IMG/VR virus record: IMGVR_UViG_3300036820_000036 | Location: 1 to 41,717 of that record | Source of the DNA: a virus | Reading direction: 5' to 3' (one strand) | DNA: 41,717 nucleotides | Shown here: positions 3,163-26,165 of the stretch, piece by piece | Numbering within the stretch: position 1 is the stretch's first letter | How the letters are laid out: each line of letters opens with the position of its first letter | Notes under the pieces: generated by a model | What the model saw: only the letters and a program-made list of their open reading frames with translations | Databases searched by the model: none | Told to the model about the DNA's origin: nothing | Made by a program: the position numbers and the translations under genes

Positions 3163-3353
3163 TGCTCGTCTTTCTCTCTCTGGATGAATTGAAGCGGATC
3201 ATGCGCGCTGTAGAGGATGCGCTGATCGCCTATGACGCGCTAGGCGAAGAACCAGAGGGAGGAAGTCAGCGCCTACATGGTTCGCTTCTCACAATCAAAG
3301 CTGCAATAGCAATACGTGAAACAGGACAAGAAACAAGAATTGAAATACGATGA
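3162..3353 (+). CDS. Hypothetical helical protein, 63 aa
   Basis: A 63-residue frame coupled to both neighbours: its ATG overlaps the previous TAA, and its TGA overlaps the next ATG. The product (MLVFLSLDELKRIMRAVEDAL...) is predicted to be two amphipathic helices. The LSLDELKRIMRAVEDALIAY phrase resembles the short helical hairpins seen in small phage proteins of unknown function. No catalytic motif. Confidence 0.6.
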   Translation: MLVFLSLDELKRIMRAVEDALIAYDALGEEPEGGSQRLHGSLLTIKAAIAIRETGQETRIEIR

Positions 3354-3550
3354 GAATATTTATTGACAATCTGCTAAGACTACGCGCAGAGAAAGGAATT
3401 ACTCAGGAAGAACTAGGGTTGAAATGTGACATGGCTTCTTCCGAGATATCACGGTTTGAGTGTGGCAGGCGTGAACCTCGCCTACATACGATGGTGCGCC
3501 TAGCTCGCGGGCTTGAGGTCGAGCCTATGGAGTTACTACGAACGGACTAG
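3350..3550 (+). CDS. XRE/Cro-family DNA-binding regulator
   Basis: A 66-residue single-domain helix-turn-helix protein. The XRE core is plain: LRLRAEKGITQEELG, then the recognition helix region MASSEISRFECGRREPRLHTMVRLARGL. The length is that of a minimal Cro-like regulator, with no oligomerisation or cleavage domain. It lies in the middle of the 2,794 to 5,416 cassette and is a good candidate to bind the inverted repeats ahead of the cassette and autoregulate it, though that link is inference. Its start is coupled (ATGA) to the preceding gene. Confidence 0.85.
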   Translation: MRIFIDNLLRLRAEKGITQEELGLKCDMASSEISRFECGRREPRLHTMVRLARGLEVEPMELLRTD

Positions 3551-3625
3551 CAGAGGAAAGCCGCGCGTGCGCTCACGGATCGACGTGCGGCCTTGTTTCA
3601 CCCAGACAGAGAGAAAAACACAACC

Positions 3626-3832
3626 ATGAACCAAACAACTAACAACCGGCTACATAGAGCTACGAAAGCTCTAAAAGATGTCGAGCAAATGACAACAACT
3701 ATGCGAGCAAACCTAGACAGAGAGATAGCTATTGCTCGTGAATCAAACACGGTCGCAGAAATAGCTCTCGCTACTGGTCTTAGTAGGGAGACAGTTTACC
3801 AGTCAATCGATAGACACAAAAGGACACAATGA
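3626..3832 (+). CDS. Small helix-turn-helix protein, 68 aa
   Basis: The frame opens at a TTG at 3,593, but ATG 3,626 is preferred. The first two thirds is a charged helix (possible coiled coil). The last third, EIALATGLSRETVYQSIDRH, is a classic helix-turn-helix of the kind found in resolvases and in small actinophage proteins. It probably binds DNA as a dimer through the N-terminal helix. The stop overlaps the ATG of the lipoprotein gene (ATGA), so the two are probably made together. Confidence 0.7.
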   Translation: MNQTTNNRLHRATKALKDVEQMTTTMRANLDREIAIARESNTVAEIALATGLSRETVYQSIDRHKRTQ

Positions 3833-4131
3833 TGAGAACTATAATTATCGCACTGATCGCAGTTGTAGCTCTCGCGGTCGCAGGGTGCGGCGGCACGAGC
3901 ACAAAGGCAGCTTGCATTACTGGCAAGGGCTACACGTACTGTTCAAAGCCCGGCTGCATTACCAGCACGAGCACAAAGCGGGAACTATGCGGGACCGCTG
4001 CCGTTGACTATTGCACCGAAGCCAAGCCGGATTATCGCTATGCAATTCTCCATGCCAACGGTGAACTATTGAACAAGGTAGAAATAGCGCGTAAAGCCTG
4101 CGCGCTTGTAGGTGTAAACCTCAACTCGTAA
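3829..4131 (+). CDS. Phage-encoded lipoprotein, 100 aa
   Basis: A 100-residue protein with a textbook lipoprotein signal: MMRT, a hydrophobic run (IIIALIAVVALA) and the lipobox V-A-G-C with the acylated Cys near residue 20. The mature part has eight further Cys, including GYTYCSKPGC, and probably folds with disulfides on the outer face of the membrane. Phage lipoproteins of this size are known in some systems to block superinfection (for example Ltp of Streptococcus phage TP-J34). Sequence similarity to Ltp is not claimed. The ribosome site AAAGGA lies 5 bases ahead. Confidence 0.75.
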   Translation: MMRTIIIALIAVVALAVAGCGGTSTKAACITGKGYTYCSKPGCITSTSTKRELCGTAAVDYCTEAKPDYRYAILHANGELLNKVEIARKACALVGVNLNS

Positions 4132-4148
4132 CAAGAGGATCGATAAAA

Positions 4149-4949
4149 ATGAGCAAGATAAAAATATACATAGTTGCTTTCATCGCGGTTTTCTTTTTCT
4201 CGATAGGGGTTTTGCACACTGCCAGTTCTATTGCATCATCTTCATATATCCTCAAGCATGGGAATTGTGAGGCTAACTATTCTCGGAAAGTAGAGAAGAT
4301 CACTAAGCGAGTACACGGTCATAGGCGTAAGCTAAAAGTCGTTTACTGCACAAAGATCATTCCTAAGCACCTAGCCGTTGCTTCCCCTGTAGACGTTACC
4401 CCGACCGCTCTTTCGCCTTCTCCGGCCGCTGTAGCGCCGCCTAAGCCTGCGTTCAGGTTGCAAGCCACCACCACGACAATGACGATCAATTCAGAAACGT
4501 GCTCGTCGGGTGAGCGTCTTTTCCCAATTGGCACCGAGCACAAAGAAGTAATGGTGACTGACGAATATTGCACTTATTCAGTTACAAGTAACAATGAATC
4601 TCAATCTGGAATATCATACGGTGCAGAAATTTGGCTAGAAACGGGAATAGGATATCTGCACCAATATCTTGTACCTGGAGAATCGCTCCCGCACGAACAA
4701 ATCACGTTTACGGATGAACGCTATAGCTATGAATATGAAAACATTAAAAAATGGGGATGCTACGCAGCGCCTTCGGCAACACCAGTTTATCCCGAGCAAA
4801 ATATTGAATTTTATATTGAAACAACTAAATCAGATTGTGCAATACGATTCTTTGCTATAGGCTACGGCCCAGCCAATGAATCAGGTTGGCTATCGTCTAA
4901 GAGTCAATCAGAAGAAGTAGATGTACATTGTTACAAGAAACACCTGTAG
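4149..4949 (+). CDS. Membrane-anchored or secreted protein, 266 aa
   Basis: The N-terminus MSKIKIYIVAFIAVFFFSIGV is a signal peptide or uncleaved membrane anchor. A basic segment and a Pro/Ala-rich linker (about residues 75 to 105) lead to an extracellular domain of about 160 residues with spaced Cys and many Thr, Tyr and Glu, probably a beta-sandwich. Ribosome site AGAGGA. It follows the lipoprotein gene by 17 bases, so the two likely act together at the host surface; exclusion or adhesion roles are both conceivable. The 3' half is more AT-rich than the 5' half, hinting at a mosaic origin. Confidence 0.7.
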   Translation: MSKIKIYIVAFIAVFFFSIGVLHTASSIASSSYILKHGNCEANYSRKVEKITKRVHGHRRKLKVVYCTKIIPKHLAVASPVDVTPTALSPSPAAVAPPKPAFRLQATTTTMTINSETCSSGERLFPIGTEHKEVMVTDEYCTYSVTSNNESQSGISYGAEIWLETGIGYLHQYLVPGESLPHEQITFTDERYSYEYENIKKWGCYAAPSATPVYPEQNIEFYIETTKSDCAIRFFAIGYGPANESGWLSSKSQSEEVDVHCYKKHL

Positions 4950-5588: not shown

Positions 5589-7814
5589 TTAGGACGGACT
5601 CCCTATGGCTACCTTCACAGTGCCCTGTTCATCTACCTCTATGTTATGTGTTGATTGTTTCACTACCGCGATGTTCGCCGCTGGCTTCTCTACCTCGATC
5701 ATCATAAGTGAATGAGCATCTACATCTACTCTGCGAGTTTCATATTGCTCTATGACTACAGGGATAGGAGTTAGAATTACAGTTGGCTTAGAGGGAGTTG
5801 CTTTTAGAGTAAATTTCCCTTCAATTAGCGCAGCTATCCTCTGTCTCAATCTAGCTGGCGCTGATAGAGAAAAGTTAGAACTAATCAATGATGAAAATCT
5901 TTGACCTATTTTCATAGGCGCTTGGATTGTCAAAGAGCCCTGTATAGATGAAGATAATTTCTGACCTATTTTTATAGGTGCTTGTAGAGATAAAGAGCTT
6001 TGTATAGTTGCCGCTAATCTCTGAGATGATCTGATATGCGCTTGTATTTCAAATGCGCTATTGATAATCGATGCCAATCTCTCAGAAGATTTTATAGGTG
6101 CAGTAATAGATAATTCAGATTTTATATTTGATGATAGTTTCTCCGCAGATTTAAGGGGAGCTACTATTGAGAATACAAATTCTAATGGAGCTTTTAATTT
6201 TACTTGACCAGCTTGACTAATAGGTGCAATTATAGTGAAAACAGAACTAATTACTGTAGATAATTTCTGTGATATTTTTATAGGCGCTTGTAATGTAAAG
6301 ACTGATTGTATCTCAGAAGATAATTTTTGGGCAGACTTTATTGGTGCCTGTATCGTAAAGACACTCTGAACAATCGAGGATAGCCTTTGTGACAATCTCA
6401 TTGGAGCAGAGATTGTAAATACCGAACTTACTTTAGAAGATAACCCTACCGTTGATCTAAGTTTGGCATTAATAGAAAATATAGAAGATACTGTAGAGAT
6501 TAATTTCTCCGCAGATTTTATAGGTGCAACTATATTTAGCTTGCCTTCTATCAAAGAAGACAATCTGGCAGATAGTCTCAGCGGTGCAGCAATAGTAAAG
6601 CTAGATTCTATTTTGCTAGCCATCCTCTGTGCAGACCGTATAGGAGCAGAGAGACTAAAGTTTGATTCTATTTTAGAGGCTAGTTTCTCTAATGATCTTA
6701 GCTTGGCAGAGAGATTAAATTCTGAGCTAACAGTAGAAGATAATTTGCTACTCAGTCTTATAGGAGCAATTAAAGTAAATTTAGATTCTATAGTCGATAC
6801 TAGATCAGTTATACCTTTACCTGTTAGCTGCCCGTATAGAGTGAATTTCCCTTCTATTGTAGATTTAATTCTCTCAAGTGAGCTAATAGGAGCAGAGATA
6901 GAGAATGTTGATCCAACTACAGATGATAATTTCTGGTTAGATTTAAGATTAGCTATTAAAGAAAAAGTAGAATCTATATTTGATCTTAATCTCTGTGACG
7001 AACGCACTACCGCTAACAGAGAAAAATTAGATTCTATTTTAGATGATAACTTCTGAGCAGAGCGTAATGGTGCAGAAATAGTAAATGACGATAATAGATT
7101 AGTAGCTAACCTAGATGAAGATTTTAATACAGCCGATAAAGAGAATACAGATTCTACAGTTGAGGATAATCTTTGCGACGACCTTAAAGGTGCCGACAAA
7201 GAAAATTCAGAAGCTATAGTGGACTGTAAAAATACTTCATTTTTAGATTCTCCTACCGAAGCAAGAGGGAAGGGTTTAAATAAATTACCAGGATGAAAAT
7301 ATACAGGACTGAAATCAGTTTGAACGGTATAAGGTCCAGATACTGCTGCTGTTCCTAAAGCTTTGAAGCTTGCAGGGCCATCAGTAGATTCAGAACCCCA
7401 CGAAACAGATTCTAGTTTTGTGTGACTTGCCGTAGTTGATTCTTTCTCGGCAGTCCCCCCAGACGCAGCTTTAGAGAAGTAATGAAAGTTACCTCCCAAC
7501 GGCACCATCGCTAGCCAATAAACGGTATTCTTTACTACCGATATATTTAATCCAGTTACAACTACCCAGGAGTTAGTAGCAGGAACACCTGTATGTGATC
7601 CTTCTCCTAATGCAGTGCCGGGAGTTCCTGAACTATCAGAATACACTCCCAGAACTAATGAAGTCATACCAGTATTAGCGACAGTGCTGGTATGTATCTG
7701 GATTTCTTCTATTTTACCTGTTTCTTTACAGGTATACTTAAATCCTTCGATTCTTCCCTGTGAACATCCATCGGCGAATGTTAATACTGCTTCTTCGCCA
7801 ATAAGTAGAGCCAT
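5589..7814 (-). CDS. Distal tail fibre-like protein with 24 x 20-residue repeats
   Basis: A 741-residue protein in three parts. Residues 1 to about 165 form a beta-sandwich-like domain (LGVYSDSSGTPGTALGEGS, then W-V-V-V-T and YWLAMVPLGG) that recurs in the 9,707 product. Residues about 190 to 675 are 24 tandem units of 20 residues (two of 22) with consensus LSSxIxSxFSIxAPIKSxQK, whose alternating hydrophobic pattern suggests a beta-solenoid or intertwined fibre shaft. The last 65 residues are a separate beta-rich tip. As the last gene of the late cluster, after the baseplate-type proteins, it is most likely a host-contact fibre. Ribosome site GGGAGGG. Confidence 0.75.
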   Translation of the reverse strand: MALLIGEEAVLTFADGCSQGRIEGFKYTCKETGKIEEIQIHTSTVANTGMTSLVLGVYSDSSGTPGTALGEGSHTGVPATNSWVVVTGLNISVVKNTVYWLAMVPLGGNFHYFSKAASGGTAEKESTTASHTKLESVSWGSESTDGPASFKALGTAAVSGPYTVQTDFSPVYFHPGNLFKPFPLASVGESKNEVFLQSTIASEFSLSAPLRSSQRLSSTVESVFSLSAVLKSSSRLATNLLSSFTISAPLRSAQKLSSKIESNFSLLAVVRSSQRLRSNIDSTFSLIANLKSNQKLSSVVGSTFSISAPISSLERIKSTIEGKFTLYGQLTGKGITDLVSTIESKFTLIAPIRLSSKLSSTVSSEFNLSAKLRSLEKLASKIESNFSLSAPIRSAQRMASKIESSFTIAAPLRLSARLSSLIEGKLNIVAPIKSAEKLISTVSSIFSINAKLRSTVGLSSKVSSVFTISAPMRLSQRLSSIVQSVFTIQAPIKSAQKLSSEIQSVFTLQAPIKISQKLSTVISSVFTIIAPISQAGQVKLKAPLEFVFSIVAPLKSAEKLSSNIKSELSITAPIKSSERLASIINSAFEIQAHIRSSQRLAATIQSSLSLQAPIKIGQKLSSSIQGSLTIQAPMKIGQRFSSLISSNFSLSAPARLRQRIAALIEGKFTLKATPSKPTVILTPIPVVIEQYETRRVDVDAHSLMMIEVEKPAANIAVVKQSTHNIEVDEQGTVKVAIGSPS

Positions 7815-7840: not shown

Positions 7841-8410
7841 CTAATTAAGAAACTCTACTAAAAATTGATAGCAAGTAAGCGCGTTAGATTCTGATTCAGT
7901 TAGCCATTTAGCGCCAACAGTAAGAATCTTAGCTTCCTCAGTATTGATAGTAGCTTCTCCACCAGTTGATGTAATCTCTGGCATTAGAGTTGTGCTAGCG
8001 GATGCAGTAGTCAATGATACAGACTCTATTCCGGTAACGTTGCCTTGAGTAATAATCTTTCCAGATGGTCCTATAGACTGTACTATGGAGGTTGCCTCCA
8101 TACCCCATGATTGGTTAGTAACTCCTGATGGAGTTGTAACTTCAATGGTTTCTGCTAGCGCAGTACCAGCTACTCCACCATAGTATAAACCGAAAATCAA
8201 TTTAGGCGCAGATGTATTAGAATATATACCACAAGCAGTAAATCTAATTATCTTTCCAACTTCTAAATAATTAGCAGGTACTACAACAGCTCCTGTAGTA
8301 CCACCGGGAGAAACATCTGCAAGGGTAGTAGACTTTTTATATACAGCACCTTTTCCTATGCCGCTAATCTGCCCCGCATTGGCGCATTGAACAAATGTCT
8401 GGTTAGCCAT
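7841..8410 (-). CDS. Minor tail protein, 189 aa
   Basis: A Ser/Thr/Gly-rich, beta-strand-rich protein. The middle (FGLYYGGVAGTALAETIEV) echoes the GVYSDSSGTPGTALGEG signature in the 5,589 product and GIYEDSNGVPGKALDEG in the 9,707 product, so all three may carry versions of one jelly-roll module. There is no catalytic motif. Its place among distal tail genes suggests a structural or receptor-contact part of the tail tip. A weak ribosome site (GGTAGA) precedes the ATG. Confidence 0.65.
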   Translation of the reverse strand: MANQTFVQCANAGQISGIGKGAVYKKSTTLADVSPGGTTGAVVVPANYLEVGKIIRFTACGIYSNTSAPKLIFGLYYGGVAGTALAETIEVTTPSGVTNQSWGMEATSIVQSIGPSGKIITQGNVTGIESVSLTTASASTTLMPEITSTGGEATINTEEAKILTVGAKWLTESESNALTCYQFLVEFLN

Positions 8411-9217: not shown

Positions 9218-9688
9218 TTAAAATTCGTAGGAAGCGCCGCTAGTAAAATTGTGTATGGCTCTTAAGATTTCGCCTTCGTGCATTACCAGAGTGCCCTTTT
9301 CATAATAGGTGAAGGGAGCCCATTCCGCCATCCCGCCGCCGATTGGCCCCCACGAATTAGCTTCGGTCCCAGGTTCTACGTTTTCACTTTGCTTTAAAGC
9401 AAGATAAGATACACCCAAACATTTAACAACCATTCCACTTGGATATAAATGATTTGTTGTCCATTCTTCTGTTGCATAACTTGATACAGGAACAGACTTA
9501 GGAGTTTTTCCTCCCTCTTCTACAACAAATTCTTCGTTAGTTTCCCACCAGCTAGCAGCTTGATTGGTTAAACTTTGAACTACTTTTTCAGGTAATTCGT
9601 ATACCTTCCCACTAATAGCAAGCAATCTTTCATTGTTAGGAAGATTAATTTCTGCTGGGGAATATGGTCCTTTATATTTTACTTTCAT
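9218..9688 (-). CDS. Tail protein with two carbohydrate-binding-like modules
   Basis: A 156-residue protein. The second half has two W-x-x-x-x-x-Y-x-x-G-x-x-V elements (EEWTTNHLYPSGMVVKCLG, and AEWAPFTYYEKGTLVMHEG), each followed by a Tyr- or Arg-containing strand. That is the signature of CBM5/12 (chitin-binding type 3) modules, which phages use to hold cell-surface glycans. The first 70 residues are unrelated to the modules. The start follows the GGATAATCA element by six bases with no Shine-Dalgarno sequence between. Confidence 0.65.
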   Translation of the reverse strand: MKVKYKGPYSPAEINLPNNERLLAISGKVYELPEKVVQSLTNQAASWWETNEEFVVEEGGKTPKSVPVSSYATEEWTTNHLYPSGMVVKCLGVSYLALKQSENVEPGTEANSWGPIGGGMAEWAPFTYYEKGTLVMHEGEILRAIHNFTSGASYEF

Positions 9689-9706: not shown

Positions 9707-11803
9707 CTAACTTATCCCTGATGCTACTGAAGCATTCTGTAGCTGAGCCTGAAGAGTTTCAATCAGATTAGGAGTAGTACCAAATTCAATAGTAGTTGTT
9801 ATTCCGTTCTCTCCCGCGCTGCACTCAACTCTATTGATCGAATAATCATTGTGTTCACCCCATACATCTTTAGATGGAGCATCTGGCACTCTAAATCTAT
9901 CTATACCAGAGCGTAGCATCCAAGCCGGTTTAACTCCTGATCCTCTAGCTTCATGTACTGGCATAGTAATAGTTGCAGTACCAGTTACATTAGCCTGTGA
10001 TTCTAAAAGTTCTAATTGTATTAAACCGAATGCTTCAGCAGCAGCCTTAGTGCTAGTTCCCATATTAATAACTATTTGTCTATTAATTTCCAAAGCGGCT
10101 AGATACTTATTTGATCTCTTTACTTCTACTGTTCCTTCTACTCCGCTAATTTCGGTATAAATAACTTTTGCAGAGTTATAAAGATTTTCAATGTTTTCTC
10201 TAATATCTAGAGTTTCACACTCGCTTCTCCAAGCCCAAGCAGTAAAAGTTCCAGGCTTAGGGTATGCACGAAAATCTAATCTAGGTTCTGGATAATAAGT
10301 CTGAGTAAGGTAATAGAGAGATTCCCAAACCCCCCAATGCCATCCTACGACTTTGGTCATTTCAGATACTATTTGTTCTGAAGGAACTGGAGAAAGATAA
10401 GATGAATGAGGTATTATATATGTAGGAACTTCTATAATTCCTAATCCAATTTCTTCTACCTTGCCTACAACAAATTCAACAATCTGAGATGGGAAAAATC
10501 CACCAGGGTCCGCACCTTGTTTAGTAAGTCCATGACGACCGTAGACGGATGGGTTATTCCAATATATCGCGTACTGTTTTCCGGCAGTTCCTCCAGCTTC
10601 ATTATATGTATAAACAAATCTAGCAATAGCCCTCGTATTCGTAGTCGCTAGTATATATTCTGGGGTTTCTCTTTCTCGCAGATTCCCAACGCCAATATCT
10701 CCCCCTCCACCAGTTTCAGTGTCAGAAAGATTCGCCTCCCAAGTCCATTGAGTAGTTGTTTTTCCAACGTTTATGCCTCTAGTCCAATTGAGATATACAG
10801 CACCAATAGGAACACCATTTGAATTATAAGTTGCCTCATTCCAAGGTAGACCACCAGCTACCCATGCGCCATTAACTGCCTGAATAAGTGCGGGTGTGGT
10901 GTTAGTAGGGCTAAGTCCGACTTCTGGTCCTGAAGGACTGAAGCCGGTTTCTATGGTGCTGATCTGTCGAGCCAAACTCATACTGCGCCAGCTAGTTAAC
11001 TCTCTATCTACGAATATTTCTGCAATAGAAGTCTCTTTTAGCTTAGACGCTTTGCCCTCGCACTGAATAAGAGTTTTAGCGCCCATTGACCTTTGTAATT
11101 CCTTAACCCTACCTTCCCAAGCTATTTTAGTTCCACAATCTAATCTAACTGGCATACCTCTAGTTATTTGAGGTAAATCTTTTGGGATAGGAAATGAGGC
11201 AGTCTCGAAACCACCAGGATCAACATTAGAGAAAGTAAAGTTTTCACTAAGAAGGTATGAATAATCTTCATTATTAATAGCTAACTTAAGAGGAAATTGT
11301 TCTCTAATGTTGGGTGCAATAAATACTAGGGGGGGTTCAGCTTCTCCAGTAGCGAGCGCGCTAAATGGTCCTATTGTTTCAGCATGAAAATTAGTAGTAG
11401 CTTCAAGAACGGCATATTTGCCAGTAGTAGTATAAGCATTTGGAGAAGCACCGTTGGAATATACAGTGTGCAAATTACCACCACGAGGAAGCCAAGCAAT
11501 CCAATACTTATAACCTTTAACTACTCTAGCTGTTAATTCAGATACAGATATCCATTGGGAAGTACCAGGAGCCAAAGCATAAGTTCCTTCATCTAAAGCC
11601 TTACCAGGAACACCGTTGGAATCTTCATATATTCCTACAATAATACTTTTAGCTGTACTAGCAGTGGCCCCTATATATAATTCTATATTTTCTACTGTTC
11701 CAGTTTCTAGAGCAGTATACTGTGATGCTTCAATTTCATTTTTGCCTATTGAGGTTTCATTAGTATAGATTGATTTTACACCTAATAAGACTATATTTGA
11801 CAT
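9707..11803 (-). CDS. Large distal tail (baseplate-type) protein, 698 aa
   Basis: I start it at ATG 11,803, which overlaps the preceding stop (TAATG), rather than six codons earlier. Residues 1 to about 150 are a beta-sandwich module like that of the 5,589 product (GIYEDSNGVPGKALDEG, YWIAWLPRGGN). The central region (MPVRLDCGTKIAWEGRVKEL) resembles the ring-forming domain of siphovirus tail-associated proteins, and the C-terminus (YSINRVECSAGENGITTTIE) is typical of such proteins. It probably forms the hub or tip below the distal tail protein. No protease or hydrolase motif was seen. Confidence 0.65.
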   Translation of the reverse strand: MSNIVLLGVKSIYTNETSIGKNEIEASQYTALETGTVENIELYIGATASTAKSIIVGIYEDSNGVPGKALDEGTYALAPGTSQWISVSELTARVVKGYKYWIAWLPRGGNLHTVYSNGASPNAYTTTGKYAVLEATTNFHAETIGPFSALATGEAEPPLVFIAPNIREQFPLKLAINNEDYSYLLSENFTFSNVDPGGFETASFPIPKDLPQITRGMPVRLDCGTKIAWEGRVKELQRSMGAKTLIQCEGKASKLKETSIAEIFVDRELTSWRSMSLARQISTIETGFSPSGPEVGLSPTNTTPALIQAVNGAWVAGGLPWNEATYNSNGVPIGAVYLNWTRGINVGKTTTQWTWEANLSDTETGGGGDIGVGNLRERETPEYILATTNTRAIARFVYTYNEAGGTAGKQYAIYWNNPSVYGRHGLTKQGADPGGFFPSQIVEFVVGKVEEIGLGIIEVPTYIIPHSSYLSPVPSEQIVSEMTKVVGWHWGVWESLYYLTQTYYPEPRLDFRAYPKPGTFTAWAWRSECETLDIRENIENLYNSAKVIYTEISGVEGTVEVKRSNKYLAALEINRQIVINMGTSTKAAAEAFGLIQLELLESQANVTGTATITMPVHEARGSGVKPAWMLRSGIDRFRVPDAPSKDVWGEHNDYSINRVECSAGENGITTTIEFGTTPNLIETLQAQLQNASVASGIS

Positions 11804-13167
11804 TAGAACATATACCTGCAACGCTCAAGAACATTTACATTTACAAGAGTTTTTTTATTCATTGACCCACCAACAATACCAGCGACAAGGAATGCAACAC
11901 TAATAGGTTCATTGCTTGCAGGCACAGGAGGAATTGCCCCGCGCGAATATCCAGTTAATTCAGAGATATTTGCAGTACCAGTAGAGGCTACACTCTTTTC
12001 AATACCAGATGCAGAAACTCCTAAGTTTCCACCGATATTAACTGTATTAGCTACACCATCAAAAGAGGCATAGTTTAGATTAGCTGAAGCTGCATAAGTA
12101 CCTGTATTTAGAAAGGTAGTAGTTTTATCCGGTAGCTGAATCATTCCACCAATATCAATAGCAGTAGAAGGACCAACAGTGACCGCATATCTTAATTGTA
12201 ATTTGTGTTTTTCTCCAGTGTTAAGATAAGAACTAGCTACATTGATAACCCCCAGATCATATAAACGCCATGCAGTTGTAGCAGCTATAGTTGCAGCTTC
12301 ACTAAAGAAACCTTGATATACGGTACGCAAACAAATTGGTGTAGCTCCAGCCGGGGTTCTTGCGGCAACTAATATTCTATTTTCTCCAACATATGAGTAT
12401 TTACTAGATGCTGTAGAAAATTCATATATTTCTGTTCCGCCACCAATACCTACCCAATGGGCATAAGTTCCACCAGGCGCATTAGCTTCAGTAGCAAATG
12501 AGCTTTGGAATTTTGCTCCAGATGCAGCCGGGATGAAAGGAATATATTCATTTGAAGGCAGCACAGACATTGCATAGCAAGCACTGGACGCTACACCTTC
12601 AGATACTAATTGGCCTTGCAACAGCGCCGGACCATCGCCGCGTATCGAGCCGCTAGCGGGAAAAACAATTACGGGGCTTGTTCCTACCCTTACTGTCGTC
12701 GCAACGCCTGAGACACCTACCGCGCGGGCTCCAGCGCGCGTGAAATAACCGAGTGGCTGCACGAACAGGCGCAATTTACCTACTAGCCAGTTCTGCGCAT
12801 TTTCCCAATAGTTTTCTTCTATATCTATTTGTCCAGAAATAATATCCCAAAATGTAGATTCAGATTCTCCGAAGTCCTGCCATTCAACTTGTGAGCCAGG
12901 AGTATTAATTAAAGTCCCTACTTCCTCTACTATTTCATTTACAGCTCTTTTAGATGCTGCATGTAAACGTAAAGGATATATTTGCTCCTTTTCTTTCAAA
13001 TCCTCAAGAGCAAGTACACCACCCACTTTCAATACAGAGTGAGCCATAACCTTATTAGAAAACTGAGGTCCAGCTACATCTAGACCTTCGCCTTTTTGAG
13101 TCATCACATATTCAGATAATTCATAGTTCCCATTAGGACTATATATCTTTAACTTAGTCAAGGCCAT
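11803..13167 (-). CDS. Distal tail protein candidate, 454 aa
   Basis: First gene after the tape measure, the usual place of the distal tail (Dit-like) protein. The N-terminal 130 residues (KLKIYSPNGNYELSEYVM, then WQDFGESESTFWDIISGQ) look like a tail-tube-continuing beta domain; the long C-terminal part is Ser/Ala/Thr-rich beta sandwich, which could bind carbohydrate. Bases 12,597 to 12,785 are sharply GC-rich compared with the rest of the gene. Start and stop abut their neighbours without a gap. Confidence 0.65.
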   Translation of the reverse strand: MALTKLKIYSPNGNYELSEYVMTQKGEGLDVAGPQFSNKVMAHSVLKVGGVLALEDLKEKEQIYPLRLHAASKRAVNEIVEEVGTLINTPGSQVEWQDFGESESTFWDIISGQIDIEENYWENAQNWLVGKLRLFVQPLGYFTRAGARAVGVSGVATTVRVGTSPVIVFPASGSIRGDGPALLQGQLVSEGVASSACYAMSVLPSNEYIPFIPAASGAKFQSSFATEANAPGGTYAHWVGIGGGTEIYEFSTASSKYSYVGENRILVAARTPAGATPICLRTVYQGFFSEAATIAATTAWRLYDLGVINVASSYLNTGEKHKLQLRYAVTVGPSTAIDIGGMIQLPDKTTTFLNTGTYAASANLNYASFDGVANTVNIGGNLGVSASGIEKSVASTGTANISELTGYSRGAIPPVPASNEPISVAFLVAGIVGGSMNKKTLVNVNVLERCRYMF

Positions 13168-23262: not shown

Positions 23263-23271
23263 TGATTATCC
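23263..23271 (-). promoter_or_regulatory. GGATAATCA junction element, copy 5
   Basis: Contains the TAA stop of the 23,266 gene and ends six bases before the ATG of the adaptor gene. No separate Shine-Dalgarno sequence is present. Confidence 0.6.
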
Positions 23272-24729
23272 CTGTTGAGTGGCTGCTATCGCTGGAGCCG
23301 CTTGGTAAATGGCTTCGATTATCTCCGAAGCACCTTCCCAACCCATCCCCTCCATGCCTTCCGGTCCTAATTGCTGCGCTAAAGATTGAGTATGAACATT
23401 TGTTAAACCATCTACTACGCCTTCAATAAATTTATCCTTCCACTCTTTTGTTGAAGGATCACCGTCTATCTTGCAACCTGTTTTAACATTCTCTGCCAAA
23501 GCTCCCCAATTGCCGCAGACTACACGACATCCCGCCGCCTGTGCCTCCATACAAGAGATACAAGAAGTCTCATCAAACTTTACTTGCCCTGGAGAATAAT
23601 AAGAAGGCAATACCCACACTAAACTACTTCTCATCAAATGAGCCAAACCTTTTTGACCCTTACCTTTTAGTATTTCAACTCCATCATGCTCTGAAAGTTT
23701 TTTAATCTTCTCACGATTCTTTGATAATTCAGGATTATGATTAGCAACAATATCATACCAAGGTCCATACAAATGTGTGAATGTAGCATCTGGAACTTGT
23801 TTCTTTATCTCAGGCCAGCATTCAAGAGCAATAGCTAATCCTCTATCTGGGCTAGACGTATATACAACTCTTTTCTCTCTATCAGGCTGTTCACCTTCAA
23901 AATAAGAAGGTACAATACCATTTCTAGCAGCTATTACTTTCCTAGAATCAATCCAAGGATATACTTCTAAAATATTTTGTTTATGCCACTCTGATACTCC
24001 GCATACATAATCAATACTTTTCATTCTCTCTTTATTGATACCCTCATTGCCAGCAGTATCCTCTAACCAAAGAATCTTAGTCTCTGCGTTAATAGGCATA
24101 TCAAACATAGTAGCATTTCTGAATGCCACTAAGCATTTACGATACTCGGTTGGATCAAAGTTTTTCCAACTCTTGAGAATTACATCTTTTACAGAACCCT
24201 CTTGATTAAAGTGACCATATAAAGTCACTATATGACCAGCTTTAGCTAATTCCTCTGCAAGTCTCCACGCCGCAGTCTCAGAACCTCCCAAACCTCTAGT
24301 AGTAATATCCATTGGGTGCCAAGGACCAATTGCATAACCAGTCCAAATTGCAATCTCTTGACCTTTACCCATTGGCTCGAACCATGCACTTACATATCCA
24401 TGATCGTCTATACCTAAATCTTCTAACTTGCCAAAGCGTCGCAAGAGGTCGGCAACGTCCACAGAACGCCACGCTCGGCGTCTCCCTGGCGTGCTGCTGC
24501 CTTTTACGCGGCCCTCTGGCACACTGACGTAGACTCGGCCTCCTGGCCTTTTAATTAAACGACAGACTGAATTAATTCTCTCACCTGGATCAGTCTTATT
24601 ATCTAGATCACCATGAATCATTCCTACATCATAGGGACCATTATCATCAGGTATTCTATGGTAAGTTGAATCAGGAAAATATTTTTCAACTAACTCTGAA
24701 GAAGCACCAGAGGGGTCTAAAATTCTCAT
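23266..24729 (-). CDS. GT-B glycosyltransferase with methyltransferase-like N-terminus
   Basis: 487 residues. Residues 1 to about 115 look like the C-terminal half of a class I methyltransferase (LIKRPGGRVYVSVPEG, then a strand-helix end) without the SAM-binding motif. Residues about 130 to 487 are a GT4-type GT-B enzyme: GLGGSETAAWRLAEELAKAG in the acceptor lobe, and FDETSCISCMEAQAAG (about 382 to 396) as the donor-binding E-x7-E. It transfers a sugar from a nucleotide donor to an unknown acceptor. ATG overlaps the stop of the preceding GT2 gene; ribosome site GAGGAG. A GC-rich patch lies at 24,430 to 24,550. Confidence 0.85.
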   Translation of the reverse strand: MRILDPSGASSELVEKYFPDSTYHRIPDDNGPYDVGMIHGDLDNKTDPGERINSVCRLIKRPGGRVYVSVPEGRVKGSSTPGRRRAWRSVDVADLLRRFGKLEDLGIDDHGYVSAWFEPMGKGQEIAIWTGYAIGPWHPMDITTRGLGGSETAAWRLAEELAKAGHIVTLYGHFNQEGSVKDVILKSWKNFDPTEYRKCLVAFRNATMFDMPINAETKILWLEDTAGNEGINKERMKSIDYVCGVSEWHKQNILEVYPWIDSRKVIAARNGIVPSYFEGEQPDREKRVVYTSSPDRGLAIALECWPEIKKQVPDATFTHLYGPWYDIVANHNPELSKNREKIKKLSEHDGVEILKGKGQKGLAHLMRSSLVWVLPSYYSPGQVKFDETSCISCMEAQAAGCRVVCGNWGALAENVKTGCKIDGDPSTKEWKDKFIEGVVDGLTNVHTQSLAQQLGPEGMEGMGWEGASEIIEAIYQAAPAIAATQQG

Positions 24730-26165
24730 ACTGCAATCTCCTCAATTAGTTGTTCTTTTTCCTGTTGTTTTAATTGGTTATCAAATTCCGTAAGACTCTT
24801 TATTAAGAATGTACTTCTAGGTTCATCCTCATATAGAGAGTGTAATTTGTATGGTTCGTTTAATGCTTTTTGAGTAAGCACCTTAGAAGCAATAACTGTT
24901 TCGTGATCCTGGCAAAAGAAAGGCACACACTGAAGTAGCATATGCGCTTTCTCAGGTTCATCATATTCTCTTAATAAGGTCGAACAATTAGCAAAAGTAA
25001 TTGCAGTCTGATCTCTTAATAATCTTCCTAGCCAATTGTTCAGATGTACCTGAATATCTAGAAAGTCAGGATTTTTTTCTACTACTTTCTGGGCAGACTT
25101 TACAGCATCTTCAAAATTACCTACTTGAGCCAGAGAAGAAGAAATAATTGTATAAGGCTTTAAATCATAATCCTCTGGATTAATGATAAGCATTGTATCG
25201 GGTTTACCTTTTTGAATTACTTGACTAGCAAACCCGGCAGACTTATCCCATTCTTCCTTTGCATAGGCAACCTCAGAAAGAGTTAAATAAGTATCAGGCC
25301 ACGAGGGACATTCCATAATCATAGGTAAGGAAACTTCTATAGCTTTATCATTTTCTCCCAAACCCATAAGAACCTGCGCATAGCGCCTAGCAATTTGGGC
25401 GCGCATATCTGGCGCTTGACCGGGGATAGTGAGGTATTGCTCGAAATACTCTGCACTCTCTTTTATTTTGTCCTGGTCTGGAACAACAGCCATCACACCT
25501 TCGGCGCGCTTTTCCCGCTTCATTGCGCCCATAAGCTCTGTACCTATATAACTTATAATTCTTCCATAATCAGGATGATCTGGGGAAATATCTTTTACCC
25601 AAGTCTTTAATATTTTCTCGTTACGACATTCCTTATTTGAAGGCATTAATCTATGTACCCAGCGAGCTTTACTAGGATCGGCTTCCACTAATGGTCCCGG
25701 TACTTGTTGGCACTCGTGGACTCTTCCCGCCCATTTCCCGCTGCTTTTTCTTACCAATCTCTCACGCTTTAATTGGCATGAAACGTTACCATTTGGCTGT
25801 ACTGCATAATCATATACACAAAAGAATTGATTAACTGTTAAATCAGTATCTTGGGCTAGTTTTCTTAAATAAGGAATACCAATTACATTATCATCTAGAT
25901 CAGCCCAAGCTAACCAATCTCCCGTAGCCAATGAATCTGCATAATTTCTAGCAGCAGAGAAATCATCGCACCACTCAAAAGTTCCAGTAACTAACTTATT
26001 CTTTTCTTTTTTGTCCTTAGCATATGCTTTTGCCGTATCTAAAGTATCATCAGAACTTCCAGTATCAACTAATACAACCTCATCAACATCGTCCCAAAAA
26101 GTATCGAAACAAGGTTTAATATTCTTTGCCTCATCTTTGGCGATGAGCACCATTGATATCTTCAT
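24726..26165 (-). CDS. GT2 glycosyltransferase with TPR-like C-terminus
   Basis: 479 residues. The N-terminal 200 residues are a GT-A family 2 enzyme: MKISMVLIAKDEAKNIKPC, VDEVVLVDTGSSDDTLDTA, and the metal-binding WADLDDNV. The rest is helical repeats resembling TPR (ARRYAQVLMGLGENDKAIEV, TLSEVAYAKEEWDKSA), a combination seen in SunS-like and SPBc2-type enzymes that modify proteins or surface polymers. The acceptor is unknown; virion proteins, host wall polymers or phage DNA are possible. Both ends are coupled by ATGA overlaps, so it is expressed with its neighbours. Confidence 0.88.
   Translation of the reverse strand: MKISMVLIAKDEAKNIKPCFDTFWDDVDEVVLVDTGSSDDTLDTAKAYAKDKKEKNKLVTGTFEWCDDFSAARNYADSLATGDWLAWADLDDNVIGIPYLRKLAQDTDLTVNQFFCVYDYAVQPNGNVSCQLKRERLVRKSSGKWAGRVHECQQVPGPLVEADPSKARWVHRLMPSNKECRNEKILKTWVKDISPDHPDYGRIISYIGTELMGAMKREKRAEGVMAVVPDQDKIKESAEYFEQYLTIPGQAPDMRAQIARRYAQVLMGLGENDKAIEVSLPMIMECPSWPDTYLTLSEVAYAKEEWDKSAGFASQVIQKGKPDTMLIINPEDYDLKPYTIISSSLAQVGNFEDAVKSAQKVVEKNPDFLDIQVHLNNWLGRLLRDQTAITFANCSTLLREYDEPEKAHMLLQCVPFFCQDHETVIASKVLTQKALNEPYKLHSLYEDEPRSTFLIKSLTEFDNQLKQQEKEQLIEEIAV

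Follow-up and report, generated by a model that had tools for sequence, protein, structure and literature searches.

The window, the whole 41.7-kb stretch of an IMG/VR virus record (GC content 39.8%), carries on its minus strand a standard tailed-phage module with a terminase, a Mu-type portal, a head maturation protease and a major head protein, and the same module continues with a tape measure protein containing M15 peptidase and transglycosylase stretches and then with smaller tail genes. The last gene of the tail module (5589–7814, minus strand) has an ATG start and a GGGAGG ribosome-binding site and encodes a protein of 741 residues. Its place at the end of the module bears out an earlier note on this DNA, in which it was taken for a terminal tail protein. 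The protein consists of an N-terminal region (residues 1–195; 7230–7814), an array of 24 units of a 20-residue repeat (residues 196–680; 5775–7229) and a short C-terminus of 61 residues (5592–5774), a candidate tip or cap that matches no family. An open reading frame on the opposite strand (6463–7056, plus strand) is a mirror of the repeat and was discounted. Elsewhere in the window, two adjacent glycosyltransferase genes (23266–26165, minus strand) lie inside the structural block, between the head and tail genes, and a 156-residue protein of the tail module (9218–9688, minus strand) gives a Pfam match above the cut-off to the carbohydrate-binding family CBM_5_12.

Residues 3–156 of the repeat protein match the start of a second tail protein, encoded by an open reading frame of 704 residues (9707–11821, minus strand), with 36% identity and an E-value of 5.9e-27; the two thus share an N-terminal domain of about 155 residues. 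The 704-residue protein is itself without a family match and is possibly a tail hub protein. That a single domain occurs on both of these tail proteins suggests that they dock at one site or bind one ligand. The open reading frame at 7841–8410 is not a further copy of this domain.

A recount of the array agreed with the earlier note, which had reported 24 units with the consensus LSSxIxSxFSIxAPIKSxQK, 22 of them of 20 residues and two of 22, and had placed them at 5800–7250, close to the measured limits of about 5775–7229. Units 1–12 start at residues 196, 216, 236, 256, 276, 296, 316, 338, 358, 378, 398 and 418, and units 13–24 at 438, 458, 478, 498, 518, 540, 560, 580, 600, 620, 640 and 660. 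The two longer units are unit 7 (residues 316–337; 6804–6869, minus strand; IKSTIEGKFTLYGQLTGKGITD) and unit 17 (residues 518–539; 6198–6263, minus strand), while in unit 24 the first half alone is conserved (IAALIEGKFTLKA). At a lag of 20 residues, self-similarity reaches 1.78 BLOSUM62 per residue, and it did not exceed −0.19 in 500 shuffles. Positions 1, 5, 9, 11, 13 and 15 of the unit are hydrophobic in essentially all units, positions 3 and 7 are small, and lysine or arginine occupies positions 16 and 20 in about nine of ten units; this odd/even alternation is unbroken along the whole array. Proline is found at position 14 (16 of 22 units), a 10-residue half-repeat within the unit is weak (p 0.03), and the array as a whole contains about 23% serine and has a net charge of +38.

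The mean pairwise identity of the units is 44% at the amino acid level, and their identity by codon position is 0.53, 0.65 and 0.40 for the first, second and third position, respectively. Since the third position is the least conserved and pN among the units (0.42) is lower than pS (0.67, near saturation), the protein is what was kept. TRF detected just 2.3 copies in the array DNA, so the nucleotide copies have diverged, the exception being units 21 and 22 with 75% nucleotide identity. Both divergence of the nucleotide copies and constraint at the protein level had been proposed from the sequence, and both are confirmed by these values. There is no clear fall of unit identity with distance along the array and hence, units 21 and 22 excepted, little sign of recent expansion.

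No name for the 20-residue repeat was found in Pfam, PHROGs, NCBIfam or the PDB. Its earlier placement outside the named families therefore holds for the libraries searched, but the repeat is not unique, as its template is also present in annotated phage minor tail proteins. Weak Pfam matches to Baculo_p26 and VEG lie within the repeats and were put down to composition artefacts; PHROG 9748 (E 1.6e-4) is without function and spans two units only, and an Axy04 'tail fiber' match aligned to a 10-residue array with a different unit. The Pfam Curlin repeat (curli-type) gave no match in the window protein. The comparison with the adenovirus-type triple β-spiral shaft was based solely on Pfam and PDB searches, which gave no match up to E 1 and E 10, respectively. 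The triple-stranded β-helix of T4 gp5 is built on an 8-residue VxGxxxxx repeat (PMC4576200), to which the window array does not conform: its period is 20, and self-similarity is −0.70 at lag 8 but +1.78 at lag 20. Searches for close relatives of the phage gave none in INPHARED, whether the query was its DNA or the repeat protein, and none in IMG/VR, where the 741-, 704- and 454-residue proteins and an alignment of the shared N-terminal domain were used, and a scan of the genome collection for the repeat returned chance frames only.

In IMG/VR, the degenerate DNA pattern FxIxAP, taken twice, gave mostly low-complexity or wrong-frame matches. One true relative, L074 (IMGVR_UViG_3300024520_000732), with an open reading frame of 986 residues and 26 units, was obtained there with a degenerate DNA pattern that spans two successive units. 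In hmmsearch with a profile of the window units it was detected with E 2e-27, compared with E values of at least 3.8 for all 1,200 shuffled sequences; L074 had been preselected by the pattern, yet a dozen stretches spread over its array contribute to the profile score. Used as a query against annotated phages, L074 in turn led to gp27 of Microbacterium phage Magritte and to two Mycobacterium abscessus prophage tail proteins. The units of these relatives were framed by their own GxG motif, and the position-specific profile of the window was then tested against them by shifts and by parity-keeping permutations. The template L1-[SA]3-[IV]5-[FY]9-[ILV]11-A13-[LIF]15 was found in register, with shift 0 the best in all six sets, and permutation p values were below 2e-4 for L074 and L079, 0.0006 for L139, 0.003 for L136, 0.004 for L080 and 0.04 for L081, the last being marginal by itself. 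There is a small chance that the likeness arose by convergence on an alternating template. When IMG/VR was finally scanned for the GxG form of the template, 12 stretches were obtained, all 12 of them in open reading frames with 20-residue repeats. L136 has, around 9901–10096, an open reading frame in which a propeller-looking region is followed by perfect copies of LSSSVGLLYSLMGELRGEGS, and the contig ends near the array.

Similar words also occur outside this set. L044 encodes a 509-residue protein with repeats of about 23 residues (TPxxVVATFxIxAPTLVAG) and a weak match to the minor tail protein PHROG 8501; its V.ATF.I.APT words resemble those of the window, but the period is 23 residues and it was kept out of the family. 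Two further candidates, from the scan of the genome collection, were rejected, as the stretch in L104 is antisense to a long open reading frame and that in L103, at a contig end, is also antisense to one.

L074 resembles the window protein in the 20-residue template and its register, in occasional units of 22–23 residues and in its place among tail genes (units GRGALSSTIPAVFTVTANLT), but differs in its GxG turn, its weak charge and its N- and C-terminal domains, which are unmatched to those of the window protein. Synteny is not claimed, because the phrog_240-like neighbours of the two do not align to each other. The minor tail proteins of mycobacteriophages and prophages (prophiFSQJ01-1 gp72 and prophiGD43A-5 gp100; PHROGs 416, 356 and 346) likewise have a central 20-residue array with the template, and among the annotated tail genes of mycobacteriophages that of the repeat protein comes last, before lysin A; they differ in Ala-rich units, the GxG turn, a C-terminal Gly_rich_2 domain (PF21722) and a weaker match (p 0.004–0.04). 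PHROG 416 and PF21722, both matched by L080 and L081, gave no match in the window protein. Magritte gp27 has units such as LSSNLETTVEISAPLSGDGS, with words nearly identical to those of the window, but differs in its fusion to a GDPD-like phosphodiesterase, in a strongly acidic array and in the location of its gene among head-tail genes. The outer charge per unit ranges from +1.6 in the window to −2.2 in Magritte with the core template kept, which indicates that the surface is free to change. The proposal that copy number varies among relatives holds for the mycobacteriophage proteins, with 7 units in prophiGD43A-5 gp100, 11 in prophiFSQJ01-1 gp72 and variation among further homologues; no close relative of the window phage was found. 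Most units of the window array have the turn S17-x-Q19 (SxQ followed by lysine or arginine), and the LTGKG turn of the relatives is found in unit 7 only; L139 units such as LAATVSQQYSLSPAFSGSGS are intermediate between the window form and the GxG form. The G17-x-G19 turn is common in the relatives and not known to be essential. Since it is absent from most of its units, the window array was filed as a variant rather than a plain member; the 20-residue repeat of which it is a new form is widespread in phage tails and apparently undescribed.

Prediction by AF2 from the single sequence of the whole protein gave a mean pLDDT of 45, with strands in the array and pLDDT up to 80 at its middle. With alignment A5, whose six rows were taken from the window and L074 and are almost all in register, a 10-unit fragment gave a regular solenoid-like stack with one unit per coil (pLDDT 76, pTM 0.73), assessed via secondary structure and confidence values. 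Strands lie at about positions 1–5, 8–11 and 15 of each unit; where two short strands and a turn had been proposed earlier, each 20-residue coil of the model has two or three short strands. Foldseek searches of the PDB and BFVD gave no match with E < 0.05, and the hits, none of them significant, were mostly β-helices. The predicted coil architecture is common to pectate lyases, SufB/D, autotransporter passengers and ice-binding proteins, but the array has no significant structural or sequence match to known β-solenoid proteins. The earlier proposal of a β-solenoid is thus in line with the AF2 stack but meets a serious caveat, as AF2 over-predicts β-solenoids and may be confident but wrong for repeats, 20-residue units included (PMC11795689). 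The worst cases are perfect repeats, unlike the diverged repeats of the window, and natural families for which several methods agreed had diverged repeats (PMC11795689). The inward positions 3, 7, 17 and 19 hold serine and glutamine, unusual for a solenoid core. Because of this known bias (PMC11795689), the β-solenoid with one unit per coil is rated as the most likely fold of the array, not as a demonstrated one.

It is probable that the array forms a rigid β shaft in a distal tail appendage. The repeat itself, its position, the template common to the relatives and the N-terminal domain common to the neighbouring tail protein are observed, whereas the solenoid is a prediction and the shaft role, the docking and the surface contact are inferred. 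The N-terminal domain would dock the appendage to the tail tip or bind the cell surface, the 24 repeats would build a stiff shaft of about 11–12 nm, if 24 coils are stacked at 4.8 Å, and the C-terminal 61 residues may cap it. L1, I5, F9, I11, A13 and I15 would be packed inside, with the variable, lysine- and arginine-rich even positions outside. The unit belongs to a family of 20-residue repeats seen again in the tail proteins of unrelated phages. The regular period with its inside/outside alternation argues for a β shaft, and a charge of +1.6 to −2.2 per unit over a constant core template is as expected for a structural rod. A shaft is also favoured by the annotated relatives, which are minor tail proteins, encoded last before the lysis genes and variable in array length.

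Phage fibres are mostly trimers, and the repeats could instead form an intertwined trimeric β shaft of the triple β-spiral or triple-stranded β-helix type, each unit giving a strand, a proline-containing turn (AP) and a strand. The alternation without a parity break, the frequent proline at position 14 and the weak half-repeat are all compatible with this arrangement, which is nevertheless somewhat unlikely: no fibre-shaft family was matched in Pfam or the PDB, the monomer model of AF2 is already self-consistent, and the 20-residue period differs from the 8-residue one of T4 gp5 (PMC4576200). A basic, mostly disordered tether or surface-binding tail rich in serine would account for the serine content, the net charge and the low single-sequence pLDDT, and the solenoid bias of AF2 (PMC11795689) points the same way. 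It is quite improbable, however, given that the hydrophobic positions are strictly kept in essentially every unit and that the template is kept across unrelated phages, a constraint which a tether would not need.

With the β shaft preferred, the earlier interpretation is right in outline as to shaft and tail appendage, but the repeat does not stand alone, being one version of an apparently unnamed repeat that recurs in phage tails. The template is found in tail proteins with quite different ends and may thus serve phages generally as a rod-building part of their adhesion devices, one named in no family library and for which a solved structure was not found. More tentatively, it could represent an undescribed modular family of fibre shafts, swapped between phages and joined to N- and C-terminal domains that are unrelated, which in the window would be GxG-free, strongly basic and folded as a single-chain solenoid of a type so far without a solved structure. 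If the array is a solenoid and copy number sets its length, such arrays would make it easy to relate shaft length to infection.

Two other repeats were encountered. L075 has an open reading frame (3206–4865) with 20-residue repeats of the NAVTSIPEGFNPQVGGxFYM type, unrelated to the window repeat. In Alkalicoccobacillus porphyridii P16 (L093, L092, L102, L110 and L114), a 20-bp minisatellite, CTCTTTCCCGATATCCGCCG, occurs in up to about 25 copies at several genome sites and is open in several frames on both strands.
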